Origin: Gelria sp. Kuro-4
GTDB taxonomy: Bacteria; Bacillota; DTU030; DUMP01
DNA length: 64,000 nucleotides
Direction: 5' to 3'
Assembly (NCBI RefSeq): GCF_019668485.1
Contig: NZ_AP024619.1
Span: 2,473,757 to 2,537,756 of the forward strand
Below the pieces are notes generated by a model that searched no databases, was not told the origin of the DNA, and saw only the letters and a list, made by a program, of their open reading frames with translations. The position numbers and the translations under genes are program-made. Below, in pieces: positions 7,231 through 23,987 of this stretch. Position 1 is the first letter of the stretch, and each line of letters starts with the position of its first letter.

Positions 7231-8519
7231 ACGTAACCGTTTGTCCCGCCTCTTCCCCACTCCGGGGCACCATCACCGTGCCCGGCGACAAGTCCATCTC
7301 CCACCGCGCCCTCCTCCTGGGTGCGCTCGCCGAGGGCACAACCACCGTCCACAACTTGCTGCGCAGCGCCGACTGCCTGAGCACCGCCAGCTGCCTCAAG
7401 GCGCTGGGCGTTGGGATTGAGGGCCTGGAGGGAAGCGGCCCGGTTACCGTCGCCGGCCGGGGACTTCAGGGCCTGGCGGAGCCGGAAGATGTGCTGGACG
7501 CCGGCAACTCCGGCACCACCGCCCGCCTCCTCCTGGGCATCCTGGCCGGGCAGCCCTTCACCGCCCTTCTCACCGGCGATGCTTCGCTCCGCCGCCGGCC
7601 CATGGCGCGGGTGACGGCACCGCTCGCGCGCATGGGCGCGCAGATCCTGGGGCGCAGAGATGGTAGCCTGCTTCCTTTGGCCGTCCGGGGCGGTAGACTC
7701 CGGGGCGGCCACTTCGCCCTTCCCGTGGCCTCCGCCCAGCTGAAGTCGGCCCTGCTCCTGGCCGGCCTCAATGCCGAAGGCGAGACCAGCATCACCGAGC
7801 CCGCGCCCTCACGGGATCACACAGAGCGGATGCTCGCCGCCTGGGGCGTGCCGCTCCGGCGGGCAGGAAGCAGCGTTATTCTCCCAGCCGGCCCGCGCCT
7901 GCGGGCGCAAACCGTCTCCGTCCCCGGTGACATCTCCGCTGCGGCCTTCTTCCTCGTCGCCGCGGCCATCCTTCCCGGCAGCCAGGTCACCATCAAAGGG
8001 GTGGGCGTCAACTCCACCCGCACGGGCGTCCTCGATGTTCTGGCGCGCATGGGCGCCCCGGTCACCCTGACCGACCGGCACGAAGAAAGCGGCGAACCGC
8101 TGGCTGATATCACCGTTGCCGCCGCGCCGCTTCAGGGCGTCGAGATCGCCGGGCCGCTCATACCCCGCCTCATCGACGAGATCCCCGCCCTGGCCGTGGC
8201 CGCCTGCTACGCCCAGGGCGAGACCGTCATCCGCGACGCGGCCGAACTGCGCGTGAAAGAGAGCGACCGCCTGGCCGCCCTGGCCCGGGAACTGGGCGCT
8301 CTGGGCGCCGACATCCGCGAACTCCCCGACGGCCTCATCATCCGCGGCCGCCCCCTCCACGGCGGCGAAGTCAAGAGCCACGGCGATCACCGCCTGGCCA
8401 TGGCCCTGGCCGTCGCCGCCTTAGCCGCCCGCGGCCCCGTCACCATCGCCGGGGCCGACTGCGTCAGCATCTCGTTCCCTACCTTCTTCTCCCAGGTGCC
8501 GGGCACCCGGAGACACTAA
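7227..8519 (+). CDS. aroA: EPSP synthase
   Basis: AroA transfers the enolpyruvyl group of PEP to shikimate-3-phosphate. The 430-residue protein shows [20 protein letters not shown] near the N-terminus, [45 protein letters not shown] and [13 protein letters not shown], all diagnostic. Its normal ending ([11 protein letters not shown]) is followed by a short tail encoded by an 18-base palindromic sequence (8492-8509) that also occurs at 33257-33274. The stop codon overlaps that of the convergent amidohydrolase gene by four bases, leaving no room for a separate terminator. Confidence 0.95.
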
Positions 8520-10108
8520 TTTCTGCGCCGCAAGGCCCTGCCTGCCCGCACACCGGTTAGCTTGCCTTTCTCCAGTGCCACCCGGCCGGCCACCAAGACA
8601 TGAGCGATGCCTTCCGGGTACCGGTTCGGCTCGGCGAAGGTGCCCTTCTCACGGACGGCCTCTGCATCGAAGATGGTGATGTCGGCCACCATGCCTTCCC
8701 GGATCAGCCCCCGGTCCTGCAGGCCCAGCCGCCGTGCCGGCAAAGACGTCATGCGCTTCACTGCCTGGGGCAGGGAGAGAACTTTCTCCTCCCGCACGTA
8801 CTTGCCCAAGAAGCGGGCGCAGGTACCATAGACCCGCGGGTGCGGCTTGCCGCCGACGATCCCGTCGGAGCACAGGGTCATGTACTCGCTCTGCATGATC
8901 TCCTTCACGTCATCCTCAGAGCCGTAGAAGATCGTCATGGTTACCGCGTCGTCCTCTTCGATCAAGAGGTCGCAGACCGCATCCAACGGGGTCTTGCCGG
9001 TTTGCGCGGCAATCTCGGCCACGGATTTGCCCTCAGCAAAGCGGTTCTTTTCCGTTTGCACGGCATTGACCATCACGTTCTCCCAGCCACAGGTGTCCAC
9101 CCAGTTTTCCCAGCGCTCCGGTTTGATGTTCTCTTGCACCTGCCGGATCTCCTCCCGGAAGGCGGGGTCTTTGATGTTTTCCAGGAGCTTGGTCGTGCCC
9201 CCGGTGTGGAAGCGGGGTGGGATGACCGCATCCAGCATGGTGCTGCCGGCAATATAGGGGTACTGGTCGAAGGTGACCTCCAGGCCCTGGGCGCGCGCCT
9301 CGTCCAGGAGGGCCAACACCTCGCCCGCCCGGCCCCAGTTACGCCGTCCGGCGACTTTCAGGTGTGAGATGTGCAGCGGGCAGCCGGCCTCGAGACAAAT
9401 CCCCGTCACTTCGCGGATGGAGTCGAGCACGTAGTCGGCCTCATTGCGCATGTGGACCACAAAGAAACCACCGTAGCCGGCCGTCACCTTGCACAGTTCC
9501 ACAAGTTCAGTGCGGTCGGCATACATACCCGGTGGATAGATGAGCCCGGTGGAGAAACCGACTCCGCCCTCCTCCATGGCCTGAGCTAGGATAGCCTTCA
9601 TGCGCTCGAGTTCCACGGGCGTGGCGGGCCGGTTTTCCCAACCCAGGGCCATGGCCCGGACGGCACCGTGCGGCACCAGCATCAGGGAGTTCGTCGCCGG
9701 CTGCACGGCATTAATCGCAGCCAAGTATTCCGCCATAGAGTTCCAGGGCCACTCGGTAAGGTAGGTGCCCAAGAGGCCTGAAACACGCCGCATCATCGGC
9801 CCTTTGTTAGCGTCATCCAGCGGAGCCACGGACAGGCCGTCCTGGCCCAGGAGGGCCGTGGTGATGCCCTGCATCAGCTTGGCATCTTCTTCAGGGTGCT
9901 TAAACACCCTGAGGTCCGAGTGAGTGTGCATGTCGATGAAACCGGGAGCGACGATTAACCCACTGGCATCAATAACGCGGGCAGCCTCCACTTCGACGAC
10001 ATGGCCCACCCGAACAATCCTGTCCCCTTGAACTGCAACGTCCGCCTTAAACCCGGGGTTACCGCTGCCGTCGATGACCTGACCGTTCTTTACCAGGACA
10101 TCTAGCAA
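8516..10108 (-). CDS. D-aminoacylase-type amidohydrolase
   Basis: This amidohydrolase-superfamily protein resembles N-acyl-D-amino-acid deacylases. It begins [16 protein letters not shown] and has the metal-site motif [11 protein letters not shown] (~60-70), then [26 protein letters not shown] and [14 protein letters not shown], and a late [12 protein letters not shown] chose the TTG at 10108 (530 aa) because AAAGGAG lies 9 bases upstream; the frame is open further upstream. It is the last gene of the minus-strand block driven by the sigma-54 promoter, separated from the upstream amidase gene by a perfect stem-loop. The substrate is unknown; other members act on dihydropyrimidine-like or N-acyl compounds, which would fit its neighbours. 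Confidence 0.82.
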
Positions 10109-10129: not shown

Positions 10130-10160
10130 GTCCCTGCTGGCCACAGCGGCCAGCAGGGAC
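10130..10160 (-). other. Intercistronic stem-loop
   Basis: A perfect 13-base-pair inverted repeat (10130-10142 with 10148-10160, five-base loop) lies between the amidase stop and the amidohydrolase start. No U-tract follows on the minus strand, so it is more likely an mRNA processing or stability element, or a weak attenuator, than a full terminator. Confidence 0.7.
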
Positions 10161-10170
10161 AACTAGGATA

Positions 10171-11100
10171 TCAGTACCGAACTGGTTTCACCAAATGCTC
10201 ATAGAAGTAAGGCTGCAGGTCATAGCCAGGACGCAGACCGGGGAATTGCGTTCTGGCATTATAGAGAGAGTTAATGTTTAACGTCCCGATAACCATGGCC
10301 TCTTCGTCGATTACACCACCAACAATTTCTTCGCCGTCAGGAGTTACGACACAGTTGCCACCAAAGAAGCTCGCCCCTCGGAAAGACCCGACCACATTGC
10401 AGTAGGCCTGGAACACGCGGTTTTCCATCGCCCGGGTCTTGAGAAGCAGCGGCCAGCCAGCCTTGAACTCCGTAGGACCAGCAGAGATAGTAAGAATGAT
10501 CTGCGCCCCCTGAAGCGCTTGAATGCGCGGAATCTCAGGTAGCCAAGCATCCTGACAGATATTAATAGCCATATCCCAACCCTTGATCTTGAAGATTGGA
10601 AACCTGGTTCCCGGGGACCAGTAGTTGCCCTCAGTAACCAGAAGATCACCGATACGGAAAGTCGGCAGTGTAATCTTGCTGTAAACACCCATTACGCCTT
10701 CTTGCGGTCCGACGACGACAGCAGAGTTCGTGATGAATCCTGGGAATTCGCGAACGGCTACCGGCATGCCCATGACGATATAAATGTCATTCTCTTTCGC
10801 AGCCTTTACCAGTTTGTCGGTAACAGGTCCCGGCACAGGCTCAGCTACGTATCGGCTCTCATACTGACCGGTGTAATTAGAAAGATACATTTCCGGAAAG
10901 GTTACCAGATCTGCGCCTTCAGCCGCCGCCTCTTTTATTAATTCTAAGGCCTTCTCCAGGTTTGCTGAAACATTACCGATTTCTGAGCTAAGTTGGCACA
11001 GTGCAAGAGTAAGGTTTTCTTGAAAACCCATGAGCTTGGCTGGGGTCTCAGGAATGCGGTCTTGAGCCAGACTCCCTCTAACCTTTTTTATGTTAGTCAT
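10171..11100 (-). CDS. Nitrilase-superfamily C-N hydrolase (1)
   Basis: The 309-residue protein is a carbon-nitrogen hydrolase with the full Glu-Lys-Cys triad: FPEMYLSNYTG (Glu), VYSKITLPTF (Lys) and NICQDAWLPE (Cys). Such enzymes hydrolyse amides, N-carbamoyl compounds or nitriles in the cytoplasm. The start at 11100 has AGGAGAGGGAG upstream and gives about 25 residues before the usual beginning of the fold (LTLALCQLS). It lies 34 bases after the permease gene. The second amidase of the block (12743-13663) is a paralogue with the same VCQDA/ICQDA pattern. Amidase or N-carbamoyl amidohydrolase is more likely than true nitrilase, but the substrate cannot be read from sequence. Confidence 0.85.
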   Translation of the reverse strand: MTNIKKVRGSLAQDRIPETPAKLMGFQENLTLALCQLSSEIGNVSANLEKALELIKEAAAEGADLVTFPEMYLSNYTGQYESRYVAEPVPGPVTDKLVKAAKENDIYIVMGMPVAVREFPGFITNSAVVVGPQEGVMGVYSKITLPTFRIGDLLVTEGNYWSPGTRFPIFKIKGWDMAINICQDAWLPEIPRIQALQGAQIILTISAGPTEFKAGWPLLLKTRAMENRVFQAYCNVVGSFRGASFFGGNCVVTPDGEEIVGGVIDEEAMVIGTLNINSLYNARTQFPGLRPGYDLQPYFYEHLVKPVRY

Positions 11101-11134: not shown

Positions 11135-12676
11135 TTAGCTCTGTATTTGATCAAGCGGCGGAACCAAGGGTTTACTGATGATCATCACTAGCCCAAATAT
11201 AACGTAACTCAAAATCACCGGTATAGGTGCCGCCAGAAAAGTGATGTTTTGGGCATGCATCAAACCAATCAGGGACAAAGCAGCTCCAAGGAAACTCCAG
11301 AGTCCAGCCTTAACCGGTTGATGTTCTATAATTGAAACTAAAATCGAGCCCCAAACAATGCAGGTTAACGGGAAGCCCCAGGCCAAAGTGTTTACAGCGT
11401 CTACAAAGACTCCAGCTCCTGCCAGTTGTGTTCCAACCTTTGCCAGGTCAATATTCAAGGCGGTAAATACGGGATTGAATTGTGACTGAACCAGATAAGC
11501 CCCGGCAGGAATAAAGGTAAGGAATACCGCTGGCAGATGCCGTCTAGGACTTTCCGTAGCCGCTACTTCTGCGAGCAGGATGGCTAACCAGATGAAGATT
11601 CCAGCAATAACACCGCTAGGGATCAGATTCATACCGGCCCAGAGAAGGCCTGTTAATCCGGTAACGAGGTAGATTATGGCTGCCAGGGTAGTGTAGCCAC
11701 AACGCGCTCCAGCAGCTTTCCATCCCGGGTGCCCTGTCAAAACGAACGTCGGCATCCAGCTGCCTAGAAGGGCTCCGCCAATGGTGGTGAGCAGACTATC
11801 CGCTATAAGCACTTCGCGTAGAGAATACTTATCACCTACCGCTTCAGCAGCTTCAAGGTTACTTAGGGTCCACATCATCTGATATCCGACGGTAAGAGGT
11901 ATGATGAGTGGAGCAAACTTGACGAACGCATCTTTAAGATGGAACAACCCGATAGGGGTAAACCGGAAGAAGTAGAAACCCGGAAACCCTTCGCCGAACC
12001 CCGGTACGTAGCCCACCGCGTACCCAATGATCCCACCGAGGATCATGACGATGGCCAGGGGCGGGACGGGTGTCCGCAAACCACCGTACATAGCCAAAAG
12101 GACTATGGCCAGGGTTACGAAGGCCACGTACGGCTGCGTAAACAATGTTATGCCGTATGTCGTTCCGACGAAGACCAGAAGAATTCCGCCGATAAACCCT
12201 AGTAAAGCCGCCCGAGGCAAAAGACTGCGCAACTTTTCCACAAAAGGCAGCATGACGATCTTTATTATCCCGTAGAGAAGATTACAGGCGAGTCCAAGCC
12301 CCCAGGCTAAATTGGCATCTTTAGTTGACAGCCAAGTGGGAAGTACCACAGCGAAAGTAATGGTGAGACTACCTACCAAATCCACGCCTGTACCAGGGAG
12401 CGCAGTTACATCGGTACGGCCTTCTTTACGAGCCAGCCTCAATCCCATCCAGGTACAGTACAGCTCACAGGCTACCTGCTGCCAAACAAAAGCCGGGAGG
12501 AGATAGAACATGATAATCTTGGCTGGAAAGCCGGCCGCTAGCAGAGGAGCTGCGCAGACAATAGGTATCGCATACTGAGCGAAGAAGAGAAACATGGCAC
12601 CGTCCCAGTCTCCACGGGTGGCTTTCAACGTACCAAGAACATCTGCCAGGGTTACCTTTTGATGAGTGGTAGGCAC
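11135..12676 (-). CDS. NCS2-like membrane permease
   Basis: The 513-residue protein is almost wholly hydrophobic, with about 12-13 membrane segments. The stretch TTIGGALLGSWMPTFVLTGH followed by KAAGARCGYTTL matches, in position and character, the family motif of nucleobase/cation symporters (xanthine-uracil-vitamin C permeases), where a substrate-binding helix break precedes a G-A-R-T-G-type loop. LPGTGVDLVGS near residue 95 is also family-like. Its position between two amidase genes suggests it imports their substrate, possibly a nucleobase-derived or other cyclic amide. GGAGG precedes the ATG. Base composition is visibly lower in GC than the flanking aro genes. The family assignment is moderately sure; the substrate is unknown. 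Confidence 0.72.
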   Translation of the reverse strand: MPTTHQKVTLADVLGTLKATRGDWDGAMFLFFAQYAIPIVCAAPLLAAGFPAKIIMFYLLPAFVWQQVACELYCTWMGLRLARKEGRTDVTALPGTGVDLVGSLTITFAVVLPTWLSTKDANLAWGLGLACNLLYGIIKIVMLPFVEKLRSLLPRAALLGFIGGILLVFVGTTYGITLFTQPYVAFVTLAIVLLAMYGGLRTPVPPLAIVMILGGIIGYAVGYVPGFGEGFPGFYFFRFTPIGLFHLKDAFVKFAPLIIPLTVGYQMMWTLSNLEAAEAVGDKYSLREVLIADSLLTTIGGALLGSWMPTFVLTGHPGWKAAGARCGYTTLAAIIYLVTGLTGLLWAGMNLIPSGVIAGIFIWLAILLAEVAATESPRRHLPAVFLTFIPAGAYLVQSQFNPVFTALNIDLAKVGTQLAGAGVFVDAVNTLAWGFPLTCIVWGSILVSIIEHQPVKAGLWSFLGAALSLIGLMHAQNITFLAAPIPVILSYVIFGLVMIISKPLVPPLDQIQS

Positions 12677-12742: not shown

Positions 12743-13663
12743 TTAGCGTTTATCCCCGAGGCTTACACCCATTTTCGTTAACGGCGTCAGTAGTTCGGGG
12801 CGGAAGTCACGAATGAACTTAGCTCCCCACTGGGCTTGACGAACCAAATCAGTATCAATTTCTGCCACAACGAGATCAGGCTCCTGGATCTTCCCTATCG
12901 CGACCAACCGCCCGAATGGATCAGCAACGTGGGATTCGCCCTGGAAAGTTGCCTCCATCGGAATACCCCGGTACTCGAATCTTTCTGTACCACACTTGTT
13001 GGCAGCTATAACAAAAACGCCATTTTCCCAAGCATGGACCCTGGTTACATCTTTAAGAATATCGTGCTCGATGTCCGTGACAGGCGATGGGTGGTTAAAG
13101 ACCTGGACTACCAGCTGAGCACCCCGGAAAGCAAAAACCCGGATGAATTCAGCATAAACGGCGTCCTGGCAAACCTCTATGCCAATGTTCCCGATATCAG
13201 TCTTAAATACCGGGAGATCATCCCCGCGACGGAAGATCTCCGCTTCTTCGATTAAAATAGGATTTCCTGCAGGATCGGTCCAAGTATGAACATAGAGAGG
13301 CAGTACTGCCTTGGAATAGATCCCGGCCACCTCACCACGTCGGTTGATCAGAACGGCTGAATTGTAGACTACACCCGGCAGTTCTGAATCGCGGCGACAG
13401 ATCCCGGCGATCAGATTAAAACCGTAGCGCTGAGCAACAGCGCCCCATTTGTCCGTAACCGGCCCAGGTACAGGTTCAGCTAACTCTAGGTGCTTTTCGC
13501 CAGCAGCATATCCTGTTGTAATCAATTCCGGGAGAACAACTAGATCTGGCTTTTCCTTTCCGGCCCGTTCCAACCATTCCAAACTAAGTGAAACATTTTT
13601 CTCCTTGTCCCCCAGTTCCGTCGCATACTGGCAAAGTGCCAGCCTAACTTTCATTCGCTTCAC
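12743..13663 (-). CDS. Nitrilase-superfamily C-N hydrolase (2)
   Basis: This 306-residue C-N hydrolase has its triad in LPELITTGY (Glu), IYSKAVLPLY (Lys) and IEVCQDAVYAE (Cys), followed by NHPSPVTD and a typical RVHAWENGVFVIAANKCG segment. It is the first gene downstream of the sigma-54 promoter, about 240 bases from the predicted transcription start. Two starts are possible: GTG at 13663 and ATG at 13654. The only visible ribosome binding site (AAAGGA) is spaced better for the ATG. It is related to, but clearly diverged from, the amidase at 10171-11100, which suggests two steps on related amides rather than simple duplication. Confidence 0.85.
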   Translation of the reverse strand: MKRMKVRLALCQYATELGDKEKNVSLSLEWLERAGKEKPDLVVLPELITTGYAAGEKHLELAEPVPGPVTDKWGAVAQRYGFNLIAGICRRDSELPGVVYNSAVLINRRGEVAGIYSKAVLPLYVHTWTDPAGNPILIEEAEIFRRGDDLPVFKTDIGNIGIEVCQDAVYAEFIRVFAFRGAQLVVQVFNHPSPVTDIEHDILKDVTRVHAWENGVFVIAANKCGTERFEYRGIPMEATFQGESHVADPFGRLVAIGKIQEPDLVVAEIDTDLVRQAQWGAKFIRDFRPELLTPLTKMGVSLGDKR

Positions 13664-13910
13664 ATCCTTTCTATGTGTTTATGAACGTCTGATAGCGGGT
13701 TCCAAAACAGCTTCTCCTCCACCTCCAGTTCAAAAGTTGACCTAGTTGAGCTGCAGCGCTCACCCCCTTATGCCAAATGTTTTTTCATTCTTCTAGAGGA
13801 TTTCAGCCCAGGAACGACGAATTTGTGGGGTCAAAGTTGTAAAACAAATTTTAAGCCTGCTTTTTGTGCTACCTAACCTCTTCGCATTACTCACGTTTGA
13901 AAAACCTAGT

Positions 13911-13926
13911 TGCAATTACTGTGCCA
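13911..13926 (-). promoter_or_regulatory. Sigma-54 promoter
   Basis: Read on the minus strand the site is TGGCACAGTAATTGCA. It has the -24 TGGCAC and -12 TTGCA elements with exactly 10 bases between the invariant GG and GC, essentially the RpoN consensus. It points at the amidase-permease-amidase-amidohydrolase block, with a predicted start near 13900. A sigma-54 activator gene lies immediately on the other side. Confidence 0.85.
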
Positions 13927-13979
13927 AGCTAGCAGGCATCAACTTAGGCAGGGCCGCAAAATCCTATTAGGTGCTTTAG

Positions 13980-14014
13980 TGATGCAACCTGATTTGTGAT
14001 GCAGAAATGCATCA
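13980..14014. promoter_or_regulatory. Candidate enhancer (UAS) for the sigma-54 activator
   Basis: TGATGCA occurs at 13980-13986 and 13997-14003, and inverted (TGCATCA) at 14008-14014. The last two form a perfect 7-base dyad around GAAA. The sites lie roughly 80-110 bases upstream of the predicted sigma-54 start and just before the activator's own start codon. This is the classical position for an activator-binding element that could also allow autoregulation. Confidence 0.6.
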
Positions 14015-14040: not shown

Positions 14041-15450
14041 ATGGTGATAAAGGAAGACATCCTTGGGAAAGACACCCTGATCCAAATACTGGATTACTTT
14101 CCTGATGGTATAGCTGTCACCGATGCCCAGGGAAATTATCTTCTAGTTAACCGTGCTTATGAGACACTTGCGGGAATCAAGGCCGAAGAGGTCATCGGAC
14201 GTAATGTTCAGTTCCTGTTAGACCAAGGCTATATTTCGCCTCCTTCGGTCAGCCAGCTCATTCAGAAAACCAAGAGAAGCATCAGCAGCATGCAGAAATT
14301 TAAACGTACAGGCAGGGAATTGTTGATAACTGGAAACCCCTTGTTTAATAAGCAAGGGGATTTGGTTCTGATTATCGCAACACTAAGGGATATGACCGAA
14401 CTCAACCACTTAAAGCAGGAACTGGAGAAGCGAAGTCGTGAGTCAGAGGTGTACCAAGCGGAACTCGATATTCTCCGCCGGCAGCAAAAGGTAGAAAAGG
14501 TTATTTACCGGAGCAAGGTCATGTCTCACGTAATCGAACTGGTCAAGCGGGTTGCCCCGTTTGATACCACCATCCTTCTCACCGGCGAATCCGGTGTCGG
14601 CAAAGAAGTCATGGCCCGGCTGATCCACGATCTCAGCCCGCGCGCTGCCGAACCCTTTGTTGAGGTCAACTGCGCTGCCATACCGCCGGAACTCATTGAA
14701 GCCGAGCTGTTCGGCTACGAGGAAGGCGCCTTCACTGGAGCCAGAAAGCAGGGTAAGCCAGGCCTGTTTGAGGTGGCGCACAAAGGAACCCTGTTTCTGG
14801 ACGAGGTGGCCGAACTCGCCCCGAAGACCCAAGCTGATCTCCTGCGGGTTCTGCAAGACAAAAAGGTGCGCCGCGTAGGCGGCACCAGCACTTTTGAAGT
14901 AAACACGCGGGTCATCGCCGCCACCAACAAGAACTTGGCCGACCAGGTGCAAAAAGGTGCCTTTCGCGAAGACCTTTATTATCGCCTGAACGTGGTCCCC
15001 ATCACCATCCCGCCGCTGCGCCAGCGCAAGGAGGACATAACGCCCCTCGTGGCCCACTTCGTGGCTAAATGCAACGCCAAGTACGGGCTGAACAAGTCCA
15101 TTTCTCCGGAGGTACTGCAGTCGTTTTTTCATTACGACTGGCCCGGCAACGTAAGAGAACTGGAACACACTGTGGAGCGCCTGCTCCTTACCTCCACCTC
15201 CTCGGAAGTCACATTGTCATCCCTGGCCCAGCAAAACCCCGGTGGGATTACGAGCTTCGAGTTTCTCTCGCTTCAGGGTTATCTCGACAGCATGGAAAGG
15301 CGGCTTCTGGAAAACCTCTACTCGTCGCTCGGCAGCACCCGCAAGCTGGCTCAAGTGCTGCAGGTGGACCAGTCCACAGTGGTGCGTAAACTCCAAAAGT
15401 ACGGCATCACTAAACAAGACCGGGCTAAACATAATCCGGCGAATGACTGA
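14041..15450 (+). CDS. PAS-domain sigma-54-dependent transcriptional activator
   Basis: The 469-residue protein has three parts. An N-terminal PAS sensor (~1-115, LDYFPDGIAVTDAQGNYLLVN) and a short coiled linker come first. A central AAA+ domain (~155-395) follows, with Walker A GESGVGKE, the sigma-54-contacting GAFTGA loop, Walker B GTLFLDEVAEL and an arginine-finger region after YYRLNVVPITIPPLRQRKEDI. A C-terminal Fis-type helix-turn-helix (~430-465, STRKLAQVLQVDQSTVVRK) ends it. All motifs needed for sigma-54 activation are intact. There is no phosphoreceiver domain, so the PAS domain probably senses the signal directly. It is divergent from the block with the sigma-54 promoter and is its obvious regulator. 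AGGTGG precedes the ATG. Confidence 0.93.
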   Translation: MVIKEDILGKDTLIQILDYFPDGIAVTDAQGNYLLVNRAYETLAGIKAEEVIGRNVQFLLDQGYISPPSVSQLIQKTKRSISSMQKFKRTGRELLITGNPLFNKQGDLVLIIATLRDMTELNHLKQELEKRSRESEVYQAELDILRRQQKVEKVIYRSKVMSHVIELVKRVAPFDTTILLTGESGVGKEVMARLIHDLSPRAAEPFVEVNCAAIPPELIEAELFGYEEGAFTGARKQGKPGLFEVAHKGTLFLDEVAELAPKTQADLLRVLQDKKVRRVGGTSTFEVNTRVIAATNKNLADQVQKGAFREDLYYRLNVVPITIPPLRQRKEDITPLVAHFVAKCNAKYGLNKSISPEVLQSFFHYDWPGNVRELEHTVERLLLTSTSSEVTLSSLAQQNPGGITSFEFLSLQGYLDSMERRLLENLYSSLGSTRKLAQVLQVDQSTVVRKLQKYGITKQDRAKHNPAND

Positions 15451-15817: not shown

Positions 15818-16978
15818 GTGATGGAGCCGGGGCAGAGCTTTACGTGGCAGCTGCCGACTAAAGTTGTGTTTGGCACCGGCGCGGTCCGTAAGATCGGGGA
15901 ACAGGCCAGGGCGTTAGGGGGAACACGGGTACTCGTGGTTACCGATCCTGTCCTGCGCCGGGTCGGACCGATAGAGGAAACGCGAAAGTACCTGGAGGAA
16001 GCCGGCCTGGCCGTGACCATCTACGATGGAGTAGAACCCAATCCCACCATTGAGGTGGTGGAACAGGGCCTTACTCTGGCCCGGGAATTCGCCTGTGACC
16101 TGCTGGTGGGTTTGGGCGGCGGCAGCTCTATCGACTCGGCTAAGGCGATCGGCCTTATGCTGAACAATGCCGGCTCCATCAGCGATTACTGGGGCAGGGC
16201 GCCGGCCAACCGGGCCGTACCCGTGATTGCCGTGCCGACTACCGCGGGTACGGCCAGCGAGGTCACCTGGGTTACAGTAATCAAGGATGCCAGGCGCAAG
16301 GTCAAGATGGGGATCGGCCACCCCAACCTGGCGGCGGCGGTCGCGTTGTGTGATCCGGCTCTCAGCACTACCATGCCTGCGAATGTTACCGCCTCTACCG
16401 GGCTCGACGCCCTGACGCACGCGGTTGAATCCTACACCAATACCAGCACGGAGCCGATTTCGGAGGCGCTGGCCTTGGAAGCGATCCGGCTCATCGGCGC
16501 CAATCTGCGGCCGGCGGTAGCCAAGGGTGATAACCTCTCGGCCCGCGAGCGGATGCTGCTCGCCAGCCTTATGGCCGGATTGGCTTTTGCCAACACCCGC
16601 TTGGGTATCGTGCACGCCATCACCTCGCCCCTGGGGGGGTATTTCCCTGTTCCGCACGGTGTTGTCAACGCCATCCTCCTGCCCTACGCCATGGAGTTTA
16701 ACCTGATCGGCCACCTGGAAAAACACGCCCGGATAGCGGCGGCCCTGGGTGAAAATGTGCAGGGTCTTTCGCCGGTGGAAGCGGCCGGGAGGTCGGTGGA
16801 AGCCGTGAAGAAGCTGGCGAAGGATGTGGGGCTGCCGGCGGGGCTCGGCGAAGTGGGAGTCAAGGAAGAAAGCCTGCCTGAGGTTTGCGCAGAGGCTATG
16901 AAAAACGTCAACATCCCTATCAACCCCCGCCGGCCTACGGTAGAGGATCTTATTACCATCTGCAAAAAAGCCATGTAG
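15818..16978 (+). CDS. Iron-containing alcohol dehydrogenase
   Basis: The 386-residue protein belongs to the group III (Fe-dependent) alcohol dehydrogenases, which interconvert alcohols and aldehydes with NAD(P)H. It shows TKVVFGTGAV at the start, the nucleotide-binding GLGGGSSIDSAKAIG (~97-111), AVPTTAGTASEVT, and the metal-binding region GLDALTHAVESY followed by GIVHAITSPLGGYFPVPHG with the histidine ligands. The start is GTG at 15818 or the adjacent ATG at 15821; CGAGGGGGAAG lies just upstream. It is a single gene between the regulator and the TctCBA operon, so its pathway is not fixed by context. Confidence 0.9.
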   Translation: MMEPGQSFTWQLPTKVVFGTGAVRKIGEQARALGGTRVLVVTDPVLRRVGPIEETRKYLEEAGLAVTIYDGVEPNPTIEVVEQGLTLAREFACDLLVGLGGGSSIDSAKAIGLMLNNAGSISDYWGRAPANRAVPVIAVPTTAGTASEVTWVTVIKDARRKVKMGIGHPNLAAAVALCDPALSTTMPANVTASTGLDALTHAVESYTNTSTEPISEALALEAIRLIGANLRPAVAKGDNLSARERMLLASLMAGLAFANTRLGIVHAITSPLGGYFPVPHGVVNAILLPYAMEFNLIGHLEKHARIAAALGENVQGLSPVEAAGRSVEAVKKLAKDVGLPAGLGEVGVKEESLPEVCAEAMKNVNIPINPRRPTVEDLITICKKAM

Positions 16979-16985
16979 AAATCTT

Positions 16986-17001
16986 GGGCTGGTTGTTTGC
17001 C
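16986..17001 (+). promoter_or_regulatory. Possible second sigma-54 promoter
   Basis: GGGCTGGTTGTTTGCC has GG and GC separated by exactly 10 bases and a good -12 TTTGC, but the -24 half is imperfect (GGGCTGG rather than TGGCACG). It lies about 110 bases before tctC. If real, it would place the transporter under the same type of control as the amidase block. Confidence 0.35.
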
Positions 17002-17113
17002 CGGCCTGAGATCGGTCATGGGTTCTGGAACGCCGCGCCGCTGAAAGGAGGTGAGCTGAGTTCCCGGCTTGGAACAGCGTACTGACGGTCAAAAGTGAAG
17101 GGGGGAGAAGGTT

Positions 17114-18100
17114 GTGTCAGGCAAAAAAAGAATCGTTTGGGTGTTGCCCTCTCTGGTCATGATTGTTGCCCTGGTTGCCGGGTGCTCCAGTTCGCCGCAG
17201 CCGGCTGAGACAAAATTTCCGGAGAAACCAGTGACCATTATTTGCCCCTGGGCTGCGGGCGGAGGAACCGACGCGGTGGCGCGCGGGTTGGCGAAGGCGG
17301 CGGAGGCCCACCTCGGCCAGCCGATCACGGTCGTGAATCAAACCGGTGGGGGCGGTGCCACCGGGCACGGCGCGGGCGTTTCGGCCAAGAACGACGGCTA
17401 CACGGCCACGATAATCACCTTTGAATTGTTGTCCCTCCCGCCACAGGGGCTGGTTCCCTTTACTTACAAGGACTTTGACCTGCTGATGCGCGTGAATATG
17501 GACCCGTCGGCGCTGACGGTAAAGGCGGACGCCCCCTGGAATTCGGTCCAGGAGTTTCTCGAAGCGGCCAAGGCTGAACCGGGCGAACTGAAGGTGGGCA
17601 ATTCGGGCCCGGGCTCGGTGTGGCATATTGCCGCCGGCCTCCTGGAACAAAAAGCAGGTGTCAAGTTCACCCATGTGCCCTACGATGGGGCGGCACCAGC
17701 CGTGGCGGCGCTGGTCGGCGGCCATATCGAAGCGGTTACTGTGAGCCCGGCCGAGGTTGCGGGGCAGGTTCAGGCTGGTAACCTGAAGATCCTGGGGATC
17801 ATGAGCGATGAGCGCATCGAACAATTCCCGGACGTCCCGACCTTAAAAGAGGCGGGATTGGACGTGGTCTTTGGGACCTGGCGCGGCCTAGCCGTTCCCA
17901 AGGGAACGCCCGCTGCCGTCAAGGACATCCTGGGGGCGGCCTTTAAGGCGGGTTACGAAGAACCGTCCTTTGAGGAGTTTGCCAAGAAGGCCGGTCTCGG
18001 GCTCGCCTATCAGCCGGCCGACGAATTCACCAAGTTCCTCGACGAACAGTCCGTGCGCGTGGCAGAGGTAATGGATGCGCTGGGTATGGTAAAGAAATAG
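17114..18100 (+). CDS. tctC: TctC-type solute-binding lipoprotein
   Basis: The 328-residue protein is the extracytoplasmic solute receptor of a tripartite tricarboxylate transporter. It starts with a lipoprotein signal peptide (hydrophobic core VLPSLVMIVALVA, lipobox VAGC at about residue 24). It continues with the Bug/TctC fold: KFPEKPVTIICPWAAGGGTDAVARGLA, VVNQTGGGGATG, HVPYDGAAPAVAALVGGHIEA and DVPTLKEAGLDV. The start is GTG at 17114 preceded by GGGGGGAGAAGG. The ligand is probably a carboxylic acid but cannot be named. A strong stem-loop follows the stop codon. Confidence 0.9.
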   Translation: MSGKKRIVWVLPSLVMIVALVAGCSSSPQPAETKFPEKPVTIICPWAAGGGTDAVARGLAKAAEAHLGQPITVVNQTGGGGATGHGAGVSAKNDGYTATIITFELLSLPPQGLVPFTYKDFDLLMRVNMDPSALTVKADAPWNSVQEFLEAAKAEPGELKVGNSGPGSVWHIAAGLLEQKAGVKFTHVPYDGAAPAVAALVGGHIEAVTVSPAEVAGQVQAGNLKILGIMSDERIEQFPDVPTLKEAGLDVVFGTWRGLAVPKGTPAAVKDILGAAFKAGYEEPSFEEFAKKAGLGLAYQPADEFTKFLDEQSVRVAEVMDALGMVKK

Positions 18101-18108
18101 TCAAAGGA

Positions 18109-18136
18109 GGTAGGGTGCCTGAACAGGCACCCTACC
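18109..18136 (+). other. Stem-loop between tctC and tctB
   Basis: A perfect 13-base-pair inverted repeat (18109-18121 with 18124-18136, GGTAGGGTGCCTG and its complement) directly follows tctC. There is no T-tract. Such hairpins after binding-protein genes commonly protect the upstream mRNA and raise the receptor-to-membrane-subunit ratio. An AAAGGAGG at 18104-18110 runs into the stem but has no gene to serve. Confidence 0.75.
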
Positions 18137-18158
18137 GGAATCAACATGAGGTGGTCAC

Positions 18159-18617
18159 ATGAAGAAGCCGGACATCGCGGCCGGATTCCTGGCCCTTGCG
18201 TTGGCAACCTACGTTTTTTTCGAGACCGCGCATTTTCCCCCGGACTCAGTGTTACTTCTGGGACCGGCTTTCTTTCCGCGCCTGCTGGCCGGCGGGCTGA
18301 GCATACTGGCCGCCGCACTGATCGGGATGGCGCTGGCCGGTAGATCCTCCTCCACAGGACCAGAGTTTGACTTCGCCGGCGGCGGCATGCGGCGGGCGCT
18401 CCTGGCGCTGGTGGGAGCCGGAGTTTATACGCTGCTCTTGCCCGGTTTGGGTTTTGTTCCGGCCAGCATCCTCTTCCTCATCTATCTGATGGTCTTGCTG
18501 CAGCTGAAAAATTACGTGAAGGTGCTCGGCGTTTCCATCGCGGTGACAGCGGCCGTGTTCTTCGTGTTCCATACAGTGCTTAAAATCGCGTTGCCCCTGG
18601 GGCTCCTGGCGCGCTAG
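18159..18617 (+). CDS. tctB: TctB-type small transporter subunit
   Basis: The 152-residue protein has four hydrophobic segments (about residues 5-25, 35-55, 78-100 and 118-145), typical of TctB, the small membrane subunit of tripartite tricarboxylate transporters. Its sequence is poorly conserved within the family. The assignment rests on size, topology and its position between the receptor gene and the large subunit gene. The ATG is preceded by GAGGTGG. Confidence 0.85.
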   Translation: MKKPDIAAGFLALALATYVFFETAHFPPDSVLLLGPAFFPRLLAGGLSILAAALIGMALAGRSSSTGPEFDFAGGGMRRALLALVGAGVYTLLLPGLGFVPASILFLIYLMVLLQLKNYVKVLGVSIAVTAAVFFVFHTVLKIALPLGLLAR

Positions 18618-18633
18618 TTGGGGGGAGGTAAAG

Positions 18634-20142
18634 ATGGACTTTGATCTTCTCTGCCGGGGCTTTCTTCAGGTCTTTCACGTGAGCAACCTCTTGGTGGTGC
18701 TTCTTGGGGTGGTCGGCGGGGTTGTCGTCGGGGCCTTGCCGGGTCTGACCGCAACCATGGGCGTGGCGCTCTTGGTGCCTTTTACCTTCGGCCGGCCGGT
18801 GTTACAGTCCATGGTGATGTTGCTGGGGATCTTCTGCGGCGCCATCTACGGCGGCTCCATCTCCGCCATTCTCATCCATACTCCCGGCACCCCGGCCGCC
18901 GCGGCGACGGTTCTCGACGGCTACCCGCTGGCTTTGCAGGGCAAAGCAGGGAAGGCGATACGCATGTCCACTGTGGCCTCCGGCATCGGAGGAATGTGCG
19001 GCGCCTTGATCATGACCTTCCTCTCACCCCCGATTTCCCGGGCGGCACTCGCTTTCAGCGCTCCGGAGTACTTCGCCCTGGCGGTTTTCGGGCTCAGTAT
19101 CATCATCTCGGTATCGGGCAGGTCCTTGGTGAAAGGACTCATCGCGGGCCTCTTCGGCCTGCTGCTTTCTACCGTTGGTCTGGATCCCACCTCCGGGTAC
19201 CCGCGTTTCACCTTCGGTTCGATGGATCTTTACGGCGGGCCTGCCTTTATCCCCACCCTGATCGGCCTTTTCGCGTTATCTGAGGTCTTTCTCAATATCG
19301 AGACGCTCTTCAAAGCGCAAGAGGTCGGCGGCAGGCTCACCGACATGTCGCTCAGCCTCAAGGAACTCTCCCCCTGCCTCAAGACGATCTTCCGCTCCAC
19401 TATTTTAGGCACCTTTATCGGCGCCGTCCCGGGAGCCGGGTCGGACATCGCCGCTTTTGTCGGTTACAGTGAGGCCAAGCGTGACTCCAAGCATCCGGAG
19501 CTTTTCGGCACCGGCACTCTCGAAGGGGTTGCCGCCGCAGAAGCGGCGAACAACGCCTGCACCGGCGGGGCCATGATTCCGATGCTCAGCCTGGGGGTGC
19601 CCGGGGACGCGGTAACGGCCGTCTTGCTGGGGGCACTCATTTTACAGGGGCTGCAGCCGGGGCCGATGCTGTTCCGCGAGCACCTGGATCTTGTGTACGG
19701 CATTTTCGCCGGCATGATACTGGCGAACCTGGTTATGTTTCTTGTCGGGATGTTCGGCGCCCGCTACGTGGCCCAGATCATCAACGTGGACAGAAGGATT
19801 TTACTGCCGGTTATATTCCTGCTTTCCCTCGTCGGCTCTTTTGCCATGCGCAACAGCTTGTTCGACGTTTGGCTGGCCTTGGGGTTTGGTATTCTGGGTT
19901 ACTTGATGTCCAAGTACAACTTCCCGGCTTCGCCCATCTTGCTTGCACTGATCCTTGGCCCCATGGCGGAAAGCAACCTGCGGCGAACCCTGATCATGTC
20001 CCAAGGCGATTGGCGGGTCTTTGGGACGCGCCCCATCAGTCTCGTCATGCTGGGGCTGGCCCTTGTTTCCGTTGTTACCACCCTCATTAAGGAACAGCGC
20101 GCCCGGGCAGCCCTGAAGCAGGCCGGACTCCGGCTTCAGTGA
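18634..20142 (+). CDS. tctA: TctA-type large transporter subunit
   Basis: The 502-residue integral membrane protein is the permease subunit. Family motifs are GALPGLTATMGVALLVPFTFG, GAIYGGSISAILIHTPGTPAAAATVLDGYPL and GAVPGAGSDIAAFVGYSEAKR, then GVAAAEAANNACTGGAMIPMLSLGVPGDAV. These are the two inverted-repeat signatures that line the substrate site. The length is normal. GGGGGGAGG precedes the ATG. It ends the operon and is convergent with the aldolase-like gene. Confidence 0.93.
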   Translation: MDFDLLCRGFLQVFHVSNLLVVLLGVVGGVVVGALPGLTATMGVALLVPFTFGRPVLQSMVMLLGIFCGAIYGGSISAILIHTPGTPAAAATVLDGYPLALQGKAGKAIRMSTVASGIGGMCGALIMTFLSPPISRAALAFSAPEYFALAVFGLSIIISVSGRSLVKGLIAGLFGLLLSTVGLDPTSGYPRFTFGSMDLYGGPAFIPTLIGLFALSEVFLNIETLFKAQEVGGRLTDMSLSLKELSPCLKTIFRSTILGTFIGAVPGAGSDIAAFVGYSEAKRDSKHPELFGTGTLEGVAAAEAANNACTGGAMIPMLSLGVPGDAVTAVLLGALILQGLQPGPMLFREHLDLVYGIFAGMILANLVMFLVGMFGARYVAQIINVDRRILLPVIFLLSLVGSFAMRNSLFDVWLALGFGILGYLMSKYNFPASPILLALILGPMAESNLRRTLIMSQGDWRVFGTRPISLVMLGLALVSVVTTLIKEQRARAALKQAGLRLQ

Positions 20143-20255: not shown

Positions 20256-21179
20256 TTATTGTCTGCTGACGGCCGTTGCTTCCTTGACCTTCTGCAAGAT
20301 CCTACTTACCTGCTTCTTCCTTTCTTCATTAAGCGAACCGGCGGACTGGCGGACAAACGATTCTATGCCAACGCCCCGCTGCTTACATGCTTCTTTAATG
20401 ACGCCAATGGGAGGATTATCCAAGGCATAGACCTCAAGCAGCGGAAGCAGGGTTCTGTGCCACTTCAGGCTCTCGGCCGGATTCCCCTTAACAAAGCTCT
20501 CATAGAGCCCTACGGTAACTTCTGGATAGAAGTTGGCTGTTCCTGGAATGGCTCCATCCCCGCCCATGGCCAGGGTATTGAACAGATGGTCATCGAAGCC
20601 GACCAACACCGAGAACTCCGGCTTAACGGCCTTAACCTCCAAGATTAACTGGCGGACATAGGTTATGCTGTCTACGCTCGCCTTTATGCCTACGATATTT
20701 GCGAAGTCGGTCGCCAGGCGCTTCACAAGTTGGGGCGACATTTGTTGGCCCGTCAGGGCGGGAAAATGATAGATAAGCACAGGAATGTCAACGGCTTGGG
20801 CAATGGCCGCAAAATAGTCGTACAGGTTCTCCTCGGTAAGGCCCCAGTAGTAAGGAGTTACAACCAGTACACCATCCGCTCCAACGTCCTTGGCATGCCG
20901 GGTCAGGTCGATCGCTTCGCGTGTGTTGCAGCTTCCCGTGCCGACCAGCAAAGGAACTCTCCCGTTGATGTACTTTGCGGCGAACTCGCTGAAGGATTTT
21001 CTTTCTTGGGCGTCGAGGCGGCTGAATTCACCCATGCTGCCGAGAATAAAGATGCCGTGTACCCTGCTGCCGATGAGGAAATCAATGAGCTTTTCATTGC
21101 CTTCCCAGTCAAAAGTTCCATCCTCTTTGAAAGCCGTCAGCATTGGCGGTATAACCCCATGGAATCTCGTGCCGGACAT
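20256..21179 (-). CDS. DapA/NAL-superfamily aldolase or dehydratase
   Basis: The 307-residue TIM-barrel protein belongs to the dihydrodipicolinate synthase / N-acetylneuraminate lyase superfamily. It has the substrate-carboxylate loop GSMGEFSRL (~47), the tyrosine of VLIYHFPALTG (~135) and the Schiff-base lysine in VGIKASVDS (~162). Members include KDG and other 2-keto-3-deoxy-acid aldolases, and the linked UxaA-type genes favour such a role over lysine synthesis. The ATG at 21179 has AAGGAG upstream; a TTG one codon earlier is possible. Last gene of the IclR-linked block, separated from uxaA-like by a strong stem-loop. Confidence 0.85.
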   Translation of the reverse strand: MSGTRFHGVIPPMLTAFKEDGTFDWEGNEKLIDFLIGSRVHGIFILGSMGEFSRLDAQERKSFSEFAAKYINGRVPLLVGTGSCNTREAIDLTRHAKDVGADGVLVVTPYYWGLTEENLYDYFAAIAQAVDIPVLIYHFPALTGQQMSPQLVKRLATDFANIVGIKASVDSITYVRQLILEVKAVKPEFSVLVGFDDHLFNTLAMGGDGAIPGTANFYPEVTVGLYESFVKGNPAESLKWHRTLLPLLEVYALDNPPIGVIKEACKQRGVGIESFVRQSAGSLNEERKKQVSRILQKVKEATAVSRQ

Positions 21180-21229
21180 CAATTCACGCTCCTTATCTTA
21201 ATGAAACACTTGTTTTATGGATAACCGAC

Positions 21230-21259
21230 CCCCTGCCCCTCTTAAAGGAGGGGCAGGGG
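21230..21259 (-). other. GC-rich intercistronic stem-loop
   Basis: CCCCTGCCCCTC (21230-21241) pairs perfectly with GAGGGGCAGGGG (21248-21259) around a six-base loop. It lies between the dehydratase and aldolase genes on the minus strand. A CTCTTTT tract follows only in the plus direction, where there is no upstream gene, so I read it as an mRNA element of the minus operon. Confidence 0.65.
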
Positions 21260-21280
21260 TGCTCTTTTGGCGGCCACTTT

Positions 21281-22438
21281 TTATTGGGTCGGTCCGATGC
21301 GATTGATGCCAAAATCGCCGAAACCCAATTGCTCAGCTTTGGTCAGTTTTCCCCGGCATACTTCTACAAGCTCGGCAAAGATCCTCTCCCCTACTTCGCG
21401 AACCGTGCTCGTCCCCTCGATAATCCCGGCAGCACTGATGTCGATGTTGTCCTCCATCGTCCGGCAGGTGTTGCCGTTGCCGCACACCTTAATTGTCGGT
21501 GCGATGGGGCAGGCCGTGGGCGTGCCGCGTCCAGTGGTGAACACAATTATCTGTGCCCCGCCCGCAGCCATGCCGGTGATGGATTCGATGTCGTTACCGG
21601 GTGTGTCCATAATGACAAGGCCTTTCTTCGTCGGCTTGTAGGCGTATTCAATGACCTCCTGGACCGGGGCCAAACCGGCTTTGTGGACGCAACCCAGGGA
21701 TTTTTCCTCCAGGGTGGAGAGCCCGCCTTTTTTGTTGCCTGGTGACGGATTCGCCAGGCGGATGTCTTCTCCCATGCGAAAGGCACTTTCTTCTGCCCGC
21801 TTGACGATCTCAATGACCCGCTTTGCCACTTCCGGGCTGACCGCCCGCTCCGCCAGCAAATGCTCGGCGCCTATCAATTCCTGGGTTTCAGAGAGTATGG
21901 CCGTACCGCCGTGTTCCACCAGCAGATCACTGGCCACACCGACCGCCGGATTCGCCGCAATGCCTGATGTTGTGTCCGACCCGCCACATTCCAAACCGAG
22001 GATAATCTCGGACAGGTCATGTTCTTCCTTTTCCTGCAGTGACAAGTCGGCCAGCATCTTGCGCCCGATCCTAACGCCTTCACTTACGGCGTTGATCGTT
22101 CCACCCGCCTCTTGTATGACAATGCAGGCCACCGGTTTACCTGACTTTGCGATGCCTGCGGCAACTTCCTGGGGCTGAACATTTTCGCACCCTAAACCGA
22201 CAACGATGCAGGCTCCGACGTTGGGGTTGGTACCAAAGCCGACCAACGTTCTCTTTGTTTGTTCGCCATCGATGGGAAACTGCGAGCAGCCGTGCTGGTG
22301 GGTGATACCCACCGCTCCCGGAAGTTGCTGGGCAATCCTTTGTACCGTGTTGTTTGCGCAGACGACCGACGGTATTATGAGTAAGTAATTCCTAATACCT
22401 ACCGTACCGTCCGGCCGGGTATAACCTTTAAATTTCAC
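21281..22438 (-). CDS. UxaA-family hydro-lyase, large subunit
   Basis: The 385-residue protein matches the C-terminal catalytic part of altronate/galactarate dehydratases. It has GYTRPDGTVGIRNYLLIIPSVVC at the start, THQHGCSQ, LGCENVQ, GLECGGSDTTSGIAANPAVG and the late FTTGRGTPTACPIAPTIKVCGN. In the split form of this family the large and small subunits are separate genes, as here. Altronate-type dehydratase is the default reading. Sulfolactate sulfo-lyase (SuyB) has the same architecture and cannot be excluded, but a KDG-type aldolase and a KdgT remnant next door favour sugar acids. It overlaps the small subunit gene by four bases. Confidence 0.85.
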   Translation of the reverse strand: MKFKGYTRPDGTVGIRNYLLIIPSVVCANNTVQRIAQQLPGAVGITHQHGCSQFPIDGEQTKRTLVGFGTNPNVGACIVVGLGCENVQPQEVAAGIAKSGKPVACIVIQEAGGTINAVSEGVRIGRKMLADLSLQEKEEHDLSEIILGLECGGSDTTSGIAANPAVGVASDLLVEHGGTAILSETQELIGAEHLLAERAVSPEVAKRVIEIVKRAEESAFRMGEDIRLANPSPGNKKGGLSTLEEKSLGCVHKAGLAPVQEVIEYAYKPTKKGLVIMDTPGNDIESITGMAAGGAQIIVFTTGRGTPTACPIAPTIKVCGNGNTCRTMEDNIDISAAGIIEGTSTVREVGERIFAELVEVCRGKLTKAEQLGFGDFGINRIGPTQ

Positions 22439-22752
22439 CTTACATCCTCCTTCGCCGCCGTGTCTCCTCTTCCCCGGATGCCTTCAATGTTGTGATCGTG
22501 AACATGGGCGCCCTTTCTTATCTTTCGACTTGCTTTACCGATCGTCTGGCCGTACTTGATAACCTTGTCCGCTGTCTCCAGGTCGCGTACGGCAAATTTA
22601 TGTCCGAACGGAATGTCCTCCAGTAGTTCTATTTCCTCCTCAAAACCCTCACCCTTAACCAGCGCCCGCTGCCCTTTTACGAGGTCTCTGATTGCCACCG
22701 CAACATTGTCCCGCTGGTTGATAAGCAAAGCATCGTGTTTTCTCTCGGCCAT
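22435..22752 (-). CDS. UxaA-family small subunit (SAF domain)
   Basis: The 105-residue protein is the SAF-domain partner of the large subunit. It shows LLINQRDNVAVAIRDLVKGQ, EDIPFGHKFAVRDLETADKVIKYGQTIGKA and GAHVHDHNIEG; the last is the conserved end of the altronate dehydratase N-terminal domain. I chose the ATG at 22752, which has GGAGG eight bases upstream, rather than the earlier TTG. It is translationally coupled to the large subunit through an ATGA overlap. Confidence 0.85.
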   Translation of the reverse strand: MAERKHDALLINQRDNVAVAIRDLVKGQRALVKGEGFEEEIELLEDIPFGHKFAVRDLETADKVIKYGQTIGKASRKIRKGAHVHDHNIEGIRGRGDTAAKEDVR

Positions 22753-22779
22753 CTCAGCCACCTCCAAGAACTAAGTCGG

Positions 22780-23136
22780 TTACGCCGTCGCCTGCCTGGG
22801 TTGTTCTTCGATGCGCGGCGAACCCCCCTTCGGTGTAAGGTCTTTTGCAGAGCCAAAATGTTTTGCGGCCCACGTGGTAAGGATCGGTACCAGAATAGCG
22901 GTTATGACAACCGAAGCACCTGCCGCAGCCGTCGCTTGGGCCACATAAGGCTGCCAGGAAGGATCGACCATCGCCACGGCTGCCGGCGTAGCCACCGAGT
23001 TGCCGGCGGAGCTGGCCACCGCTGCCCCGGCATAACCGGGACGTTTAAGGACCGTTCTGTCTGCCAGTATGCAGAAGAGACCCGATATCACCACTGTCAG
23101 CAACCCCAAGATTAGGCCGGAAATCCCGCCACTTAA
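22780..23136 (-). pseudogene. Truncated 2-keto-3-deoxygluconate permease (KdgT) remnant
   Basis: The translated fragment (SGGISGLILGLLTVVISGL..., then AGAAVASSAGNSVATPAAVA and VVITAILVPILTTWAAKHFG) matches roughly the last third of KdgT permeases, which are about 310-330 residues long. The first ~200 residues are absent, and the iclR-like gene ends 24 bases upstream. A good ribosome binding site (GGGAGGTG) sits at the junction. The start codon it serves (GTG 23132) is in a different frame and meets a stop after six codons. This looks like a deletion or rearrangement that removed most of the gene; a short functional product cannot be wholly excluded. Confidence 0.75.
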
Positions 23137-23159
23137 GCACCTCCCTTCTGCCGTTAGGC

Positions 23160-23960
23160 TTATACGCTTTGGGCACGATAGCCCAACGCGCTGGAGATTT
23201 GCAGGGCATAATCCACCACAACCTCGGCCAACTCCATCACCCTGGAATCCGTTAGTCGGAAGACAGGACCGGACACGCTGAGCGCTGCTATTATCTTGCC
23301 TTCATGATCCCGGATGGGCGCTGCGACGCAACGCAGGTTGTTCATTGACTCTTCGTTGTCGATGGCATAGCCCTGCTCCCGGACCCTGGCCAGCTCCTGT
23401 TCCAGTTTGTCTGGATCAGTTATTGTGTTTTTCGTCAGCCGAACTAAGCCCCTTTCGGAAATAAGCTGCCGCCGACTCTGAACCGGAAGTTCCGAGAGCA
23501 AGACTTTCCCCAATCCGCTGCAGTGCGGCGCCAAACGTGATCCAATCTTGGTCGCGATGTAAATGGATTGCTGAGATTCCTTCTTGTCGATGTAAAGAAC
23601 CTCTCCCTGATCCAAGATAGCCAGCTGCACTGTCTCCCCCACCTCGTTACCCAGCTTGATGAGATAGGGGGAGGCCACCGTTCTAACGTCGGCGATGGCG
23701 GTGACCTTGTTACCGATCTCAAACAAGCGTATTCCCAAGGTGTACTTTCCCGTATGCGAAGACTGCCTTACGTAGCCGTAATCCCTCAGGGTCGATAGAA
23801 TGCCATGCACGGTGCTTTTCGCCTGTTCCAGGTCTCGTGCGATTTCGCTCAAGGAAAGCTCCCTCCCCTTGGCGGCGAGGAGCTCCAGTATGTTTATTGC
23901 CTTGACCACCGACTGAATGTGATTCGCGCTTTCCAGTTCCTTTCTCGCAACTTCCCTCAT
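23160..23960 (-). CDS. IclR-family transcriptional regulator
   Basis: The 266-residue protein has an N-terminal winged helix (~15-75: VVKAINILELLAAKGRELSL, AKSTVHGILSTLRDYGYV) and the C-terminal IclR effector domain. The latter shows LILDQG-like LAILDQGEVLYIDK, RLAPHCSGLGKVLLS and RCVAAPIRDHEGKIIAALSVSGP. I chose the ATG at 23960, which has AAGGAG just upstream, instead of the ATG at 23975. It is the first gene of the sugar-acid-type block and has three palindromic operator-like boxes upstream. KdgR-like regulators of this family respond to 2-keto-3-deoxy acids; that is inference. Confidence 0.92.
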   Translation of the reverse strand: MREVARKELESANHIQSVVKAINILELLAAKGRELSLSEIARDLEQAKSTVHGILSTLRDYGYVRQSSHTGKYTLGIRLFEIGNKVTAIADVRTVASPYLIKLGNEVGETVQLAILDQGEVLYIDKKESQQSIYIATKIGSRLAPHCSGLGKVLLSELPVQSRRQLISERGLVRLTKNTITDPDKLEQELARVREQGYAIDNEESMNNLRCVAAPIRDHEGKIIAALSVSGPVFRLTDSRVMELAEVVVDYALQISSALGYRAQSV

Positions 23961-23987
23961 GGCAATCTCCTTCATAAGGGCGTTTTG

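Follow-up and report, generated by a model that had tools for sequence, protein, structure and literature searches.

A predicted one-component sigma-54 circuit beside a D-aminoacylase-like amidohydrolase operon in Gelria sp. Kuro-4

The window analyzed here, a stretch of 64,000 nucleotides from the genome of Gelria sp. Kuro-4, contains a regulatory gene and a collinear block of four genes that diverge from a short intergenic region. The regulatory gene (14041–15450, plus strand) encodes a one-component sigma-54 enhancer-binding protein of 469 aa. The block is read leftward on the minus strand and consists of a carbon-nitrogen hydrolase resembling N-carbamoylputrescine amidases and D-carbamoylases (CN1, 12743–13663), a polytopic permease (11135–12676), a second carbon-nitrogen hydrolase resembling Nit2 and archaeal nitrilases (CN2, 10171–11100), and a D-aminoacylase-like amidohydrolase of the Amidohydro_3 family (8516–10108). 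A predicted sigma-54 promoter and predicted activator binding sites occupy the intergenic region. Further to the right, a tripartite tricarboxylate transporter and an iron alcohol dehydrogenase (15818–20142) adjoin a sugar-acid-like module (20256–23975) with a DHDPS-family aldolase, split altronate/galactarate dehydratase genes and an IclR-type regulator.

The predicted -24/-12 promoter, TGGCACAGTAATTGCA, lies on the minus strand at 13911–13926 and fits the pattern TGGCAY-N5-TTGCW exactly, including the GG and GC cores. It had been called near-perfect in the original prediction; it is in fact perfect, and the only site in the window that matches TGGCACN5TTGCA with 0 mismatches. A scan anchored on the GG/GC cores with 1 mismatch allowed again returned this site alone. 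When up to 2 mismatches to TGGCACN5TTGCA were accepted, 17 sites were found in the window against 19.4 expected, which is chance level, and weight was therefore placed on the perfect match only. Across the genome, a single contig of 2.88 Mb, TGGCACN5TTGCW was matched 11 times and a reversed control pattern once. Six of these 11 sites, including 13911–13926, are situated outside but less than about 900 bp from a gene for an enhancer-binding protein, at least 15 of which are encoded in the genome at E ≤ 1e-60. A genome search also revealed rpoN, as one PF00309 match above the cut-off located 25.5 kb past the end of the window. The promoter, the binding sites and the activator thus do fall within about 1.5 kb, as had been claimed for the whole circuit, but rpoN does not. 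The excess over the control pattern, the proximity of 6 of the 11 sites to activator genes and the presence of rpoN together indicate that perfect -24/-12 sites are usually real in this genome. The assignment of 13911–13926 as a sigma-54-dependent promoter, with a predicted start near 13900, is supported by these scans. Elsewhere in the genome, two identical -24/-12 sites, TGGCACCGGTTTTGCT, were observed 4.6 kb apart at 879765 and 884351 (minus strand), and a C-N hydrolase homologue with 27% identity to CN1 is found near one of them. The interval of about 235 nt between the predicted start and CN1 (13664–13899, minus strand) would form an untranslated leader and shows no special structure. It has no Rfam match and folds no better than its shuffles (z-score 0.21), and a riboswitch or other structured leader was ruled out on these grounds.

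Pfam analysis of the activator identified PAS, Sigma54_activat, AAA lid and HTH_50 domains, with PAS at the N-terminus, the HTH at the C-terminus and no receiver domain. Both the Walker A motif (GESGVGKE) and the GAFTGA loop are intact. The PAS/AAA+ architecture and GAFTGA loop expected for this protein were accordingly recovered; its DNA-binding domain had been taken for a Fis-type HTH (HTH_8), and Pfam places it instead in the TyrR-like HTH_50 family. By domain layout, the best NCBIfam match of the activator is PrdR (NF041552), with 413.7 bits. This score is far under the equivalog cut-off of 795 bits, which rules out PrdR as its identity, and the prd genes are absent at the locus. Activator orthologues were found in two related genomes, in the congener G001 with 71–72% identity and in G007 with 61%. 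The recognition-helix region QSTVVRKL is the same in the window and G001, and the helices are near-identical.

Two predicted binding elements precede the activator gene: a TGATGCA half-site on the plus strand (13980–13986) and a perfect 18-nt dyad, TGATGCA-GAAA-TGCATCA (13997–14014), which we regard as the putative enhancer (UAS). The form of the dyad in the window is TGATGCAGAAATGCATCA, and it begins 17 nt from the start of the half-site. The TGATGCA repeats and perfect dyad had been placed 80–110 bases upstream, and read from the predicted start near 13900 they stand at about -81 to -115, in good agreement. As a single word, TGATGCA is weakly enriched in the window (9 occurrences against 4.7 expected), and the exact dyad TGATGCN5TGCATCA occurs once in the genome. 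An additional TGATGC half-site was observed on the minus strand at 13936–13941, about 10 bp upstream of the -24 element and between the promoter and the enhancer sites.

The same arrangement was recognized in G001. Aligned globally, the two intergenic regions gave a near-random result with the sites misplaced, so pattern and spacing served as the basis of comparison. In G001, CGATGCA is followed by the dyad TGATGCTTGGGTGCATCA, 17 nt from its start, and then by the promoter TGGCATGAGACTTGCT on the opposite strand, so that the order of half-site, dyad and -24/-12 element and the 17-nt register are the same as in the window. The distance from half-site to promoter differs between the two by 9 bp, or about one helical turn. 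Across 8 genomes of the order, TGATGCN5TGCATCA was found in two places only, each upstream of the orthologous activator (the window and G001). Dinucleotide shuffling of the G001 region, repeated 20,000 times, did not once yield the exact dyad and produced the promoter pattern on at most 19 occasions. The search of related genomes for promoter, dyad and activator together, which had been suggested as a check, thus returned the trio in G001 in the same register. G001 is the one other genome with the full promoter architecture. In G007, no dyad was found at up to 1 mismatch, and the contig stops at the symporter start, ahead of its promoter. With these comparisons, the predicted binding sites and promoter are established by conservation, at the level of sequence. 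The original prediction of sigma-54 control is likewise backed by rpoN, by the enrichment of promoters beside activators and above all by the congener, which retains all three elements in the same order and register.

The dyad could also be read as mainly an autoregulatory operator, or as the site of another regulator, with the activator serving the promoter from elsewhere. It lies directly upstream of the activator start codon in both species (26 bp in the window, about 33 bp in G001), and the activator gene itself showed no consensus sigma-70 promoter. However, an enhancer fits the location of the dyad, about -81 to -115, as well as the extra half-site at a fixed register and the co-conservation with the -24/-12 element in G001, and we consider the operator reading rather unlikely as the main role of the site. 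Use of the dyad as both enhancer and operator is possible and would be compatible with the sigma-54 circuit.

Both CN1 and CN2 contain a CN_hydrolase domain and the E-K-C triad (with C165 and C182 as the respective cysteines), in line with the two C-N hydrolases expected here, and neither matched a specific curated NCBIfam family above its cut-off. A search for CN1 in the 12 other genomes of its class gave nothing at E ≤ 1e-30, and among about 400 genomes from the phylum just one good relative (46%) was seen; a pattern scan for its close relatives returned none. The permease had been described as NCS2-like. This label follows the annotation of homologues of 28–33% identity as xanthine/NCS2 permeases; the protein matches no Pfam or NCBIfam family. 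A profile search of the PDB gave no relative, a single-sequence structure model was uninformative (mean pLDDT 41.8), and only two relatives were found at E ≤ 1e-60 (33–34%). Some permease homologues cluster with genes for a cysteine hydrolase, FdrA, a DUF1116 protein and carbamate kinase.

The amidohydrolase probably starts at the TTG codon at 10108, giving a protein of 530 aa. When aligned to D-aminoacylase (1M7J), it keeps the metal/catalytic residues H, H, H, H and D, and the bridging Cys is replaced by Asp in the sequence GQDGLS. The metal ligands of D-aminoacylase, which we take to be H67, H69, C96, H220, H250 and D366 (1M7J numbering), are thus all kept except the Cys. The description of this protein as D-aminoacylase-like therefore holds for its Amidohydro_3 family and its His/Asp ligands, but not for the metal-bridging residue. 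The substitution is common, as 64 of 108 homologues have Asp at the bridging position and 42 have Cys. With Asp at this position, the chemistry of the amidohydrolase could differ from that of D-aminoacylase. Phylogenetically, the protein belongs to a fully supported clade of nine that contains Bacillota, Synergistota and deltaproteobacterial MAGs. The transporter genes beside clade members vary: a PanF-like symporter in G001 and G007, TRAP components in L053, L054, L057 and L091 (DctP by Pfam in L053, read from sequence in the other three), and the NCS2-like permease in Gelria sp. Kuro-4. In the stretches examined, the deltaproteobacterial and Synergistota relatives showed no sigma-54 promoter beside the TRAP genes and no activator homologue; not every member of the amidohydrolase clade therefore has the circuit. 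Genes adjacent to amidohydrolase homologues encode an alanine racemase, a protein with Ala_racemase_N and D-ser_dehydrat domains, diaminopropionate ammonia-lyase and YgeY.

In G001, the genes facing the promoter encode a DUF997 protein, a PanF-like sodium symporter and an amidohydrolase 84% identical to that in the window. In G007, the activator gene is convergent with a 77%-identical amidohydrolase and the same type of symporter, so that the linkage of activator and amidohydrolase is kept in both genomes. Since the 84%-identical amidohydrolase is found behind the G001 promoter together with other genes, the conserved core on sequence evidence is the activator, the amidohydrolase and some transporter, with CN1, the permease and CN2 specific to Gelria sp. 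Kuro-4. The PanF-like symporter beside the amidohydrolase appears as two ORFs in both relatives (L024, 9629–11037; L025, 3383–4864), with overlapping frames in G001 and an apparent in-frame stop in G007 at the position of a Gly in G001. The split may reflect either an assembly error or decay.

A perfect 13-bp hairpin with a 5-nt loop (GTCCCTGCTGGCC / GGCCAGCAGGGAC; 10130–10160, minus strand) lies between the CN2 stop codon and the ribosome-binding site of the amidohydrolase gene. It has no T-run and was not called as a terminator, and it may tune or split the operon, parting the amidohydrolase from the upstream genes. Taken with the lack of CN1 and the permease in close relatives, where the amidohydrolase follows the symporter, this hairpin could point to a reading in which the amidohydrolase forms a separate transcription unit and the sigma-54 promoter drives only a recent insertion of CN1, permease and CN2. 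Such a division appears improbable to us, as no T-run terminator and no minus-strand sigma-70 promoter were found at this position, the genes are collinear with short gaps, and the G001 amidohydrolase is itself located downstream of the sigma-54 promoter.

A function for a single operon of four genes can be proposed from its enzymes and their relatives. UacY, a PF07969 D-aminoacylase homologue, strips the 2-ureido (N-carbamoyl) group in the reductive uric-acid pathway (PMC12507026). Because of this ureido removal, the racemase, ammonia-lyase and YgeY neighbors of the amidohydrolase homologues and the E-K-C triads of CN1 and CN2, N-carbamoyl- or N-acyl-amino acids are suggested as substrates. 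The PAS domain of the activator would sense a small ligand, probably the substrate of the operon or an intermediate, and the activator would bind the TGATGCA half-site and dyad at 13980–14014. Its AAA+ domain is predicted to open sigma-54 RNA polymerase bound at 13911–13926, and transcription would then proceed leftward from about 13900 through CN1, the permease, CN2 and the amidohydrolase. Most likely, the operon would import an amino acid with an N-carbamoyl or N-acyl substituent, or else a related ureide or amide; removal of the N-substituent would yield the amino acid together with ammonia and CO2 or an acid.

Could the operon be a variant of the reductive uric-acid pathway, with UacY-type cleavage of 2,3-diureidopropionate? 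UacY provides a demonstrated case of ureido hydrolysis by a PF07969 D-aminoacylase homologue (PMC12507026), the permease homologues are annotated as xanthine permeases, and the FdrA/DUF1116/carbamate kinase clusters suggest ureide metabolism. On the other hand, SsnA and DpaL (YgeX) are without a match above the family cut-offs in the genome, and XdhD, YgfK and YgeY are all absent at the locus. With SsnA and DpaL missing above cut-off in the genome, the reductive uric-acid pathway as such was rejected, and we regard a variant of it as very unlikely.

We consider it quite probable that the locus comprises a local one-component sigma-54 induction circuit that drives an operon by which N-carbamoyl- or N-acyl-amino acids would be taken up and hydrolyzed. 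The ancestral core would be the activator, a transporter and the amidohydrolase, with Gelria sp. Kuro-4 carrying an NCS2-like permease in place of the PanF-type symporter and two additional C-N hydrolases. A wider proposal, which we offer tentatively and rate at somewhat below an even chance, is that an undescribed sigma-54-induced catabolic route for N-carbamoyl- and N-acyl-amino acids has formed around a mobile Asp-type amidohydrolase spread over Bacillota, Synergistota and deltaproteobacteria. Its activator would be kept within the family of Gelria sp. Kuro-4, and the transporter (NCS2-like, PanF-type or TRAP) and accessory amidases would be exchanged. The locus adds one well-supported regulator, its motif and its operon to the sigma-54 map of anaerobic Bacillota, and provides a case in which the switch and one enzyme are constant and the transporter and accessory hydrolases change.

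Related operons are found in Bacillales and Rhodovastum (L060–L074, L171), where dpaL, ygeY, a D-aminoacylase gene and a transporter gene occur together and the amidohydrolase is about 43–45% identical to the one described here. They adjoin an activator gene, and the intervening DNA contains a -24/-12 site, perfect or with 1 mismatch, in nearly every case examined. These operons thus resemble the locus in the adjacent activator, the -24/-12 site, an amidohydrolase of the same broad family and a transporter (a symporter). They differ in the presence of DpaL and YgeY and the lack of a TGATGC dyad, and the one activator whose length was examined is longer (586 aa). The dpaL-ygeY-D-aminoacylase-transporter operons are apparently a general sigma-54 target that lacks the TGATGC dyad. 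D-aminoacylase-like operons therefore stand recurrently behind sigma-54 promoters, in the family of Gelria sp. Kuro-4, in Bacillales and in an alphaproteobacterium. This recurrence suggests that amino acids in modified form, possibly D-configured ones, commonly serve as nutrients whose use is induced through sigma-54. At the enzyme level, D-aminoacylase (1M7J) and UacY (PMC12507026) share with the amidohydrolase the Amidohydro_3 fold, as judged by sequence, and the conserved H, H, H, H and D, but have Cys where the clade of the locus has Asp.

The closest regulatory parallels are found in Clostridiales, where PMC6615313 reconstructed 39 sigma-54 activator groups; most of these activators are one-component PAS proteins that have a single target operon next to them. 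The activators described there share with ours the PAS-AAA+-HTH layout, the GAFTGA loop and a target operon beside the activator gene; their targets likewise have multiple sites upstream of a TTGGCATN5TTGCT-type promoter, and a single target operon is the commonest case. The motif TGATGCA-N4-TGCATCA differs from the common TGT-N10-12-ACA among the motifs given in the paper's text, and the sites at our locus stand about 55–90 bp from the promoter, compared with the usual 100–250 bp in the Clostridiales groups. The gene content of the locus occurs in none of the 39 listed target operons. The original statement that the controlled genes correspond to no known pathway agrees with this absence from the 39 groups and with the lack of DpaL and SsnA matches above cut-off in the genome. 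The circuit is accordingly of a known kind, a one-component PAS activator with one adjacent operon, and the content of the operon is new among these 39 groups.
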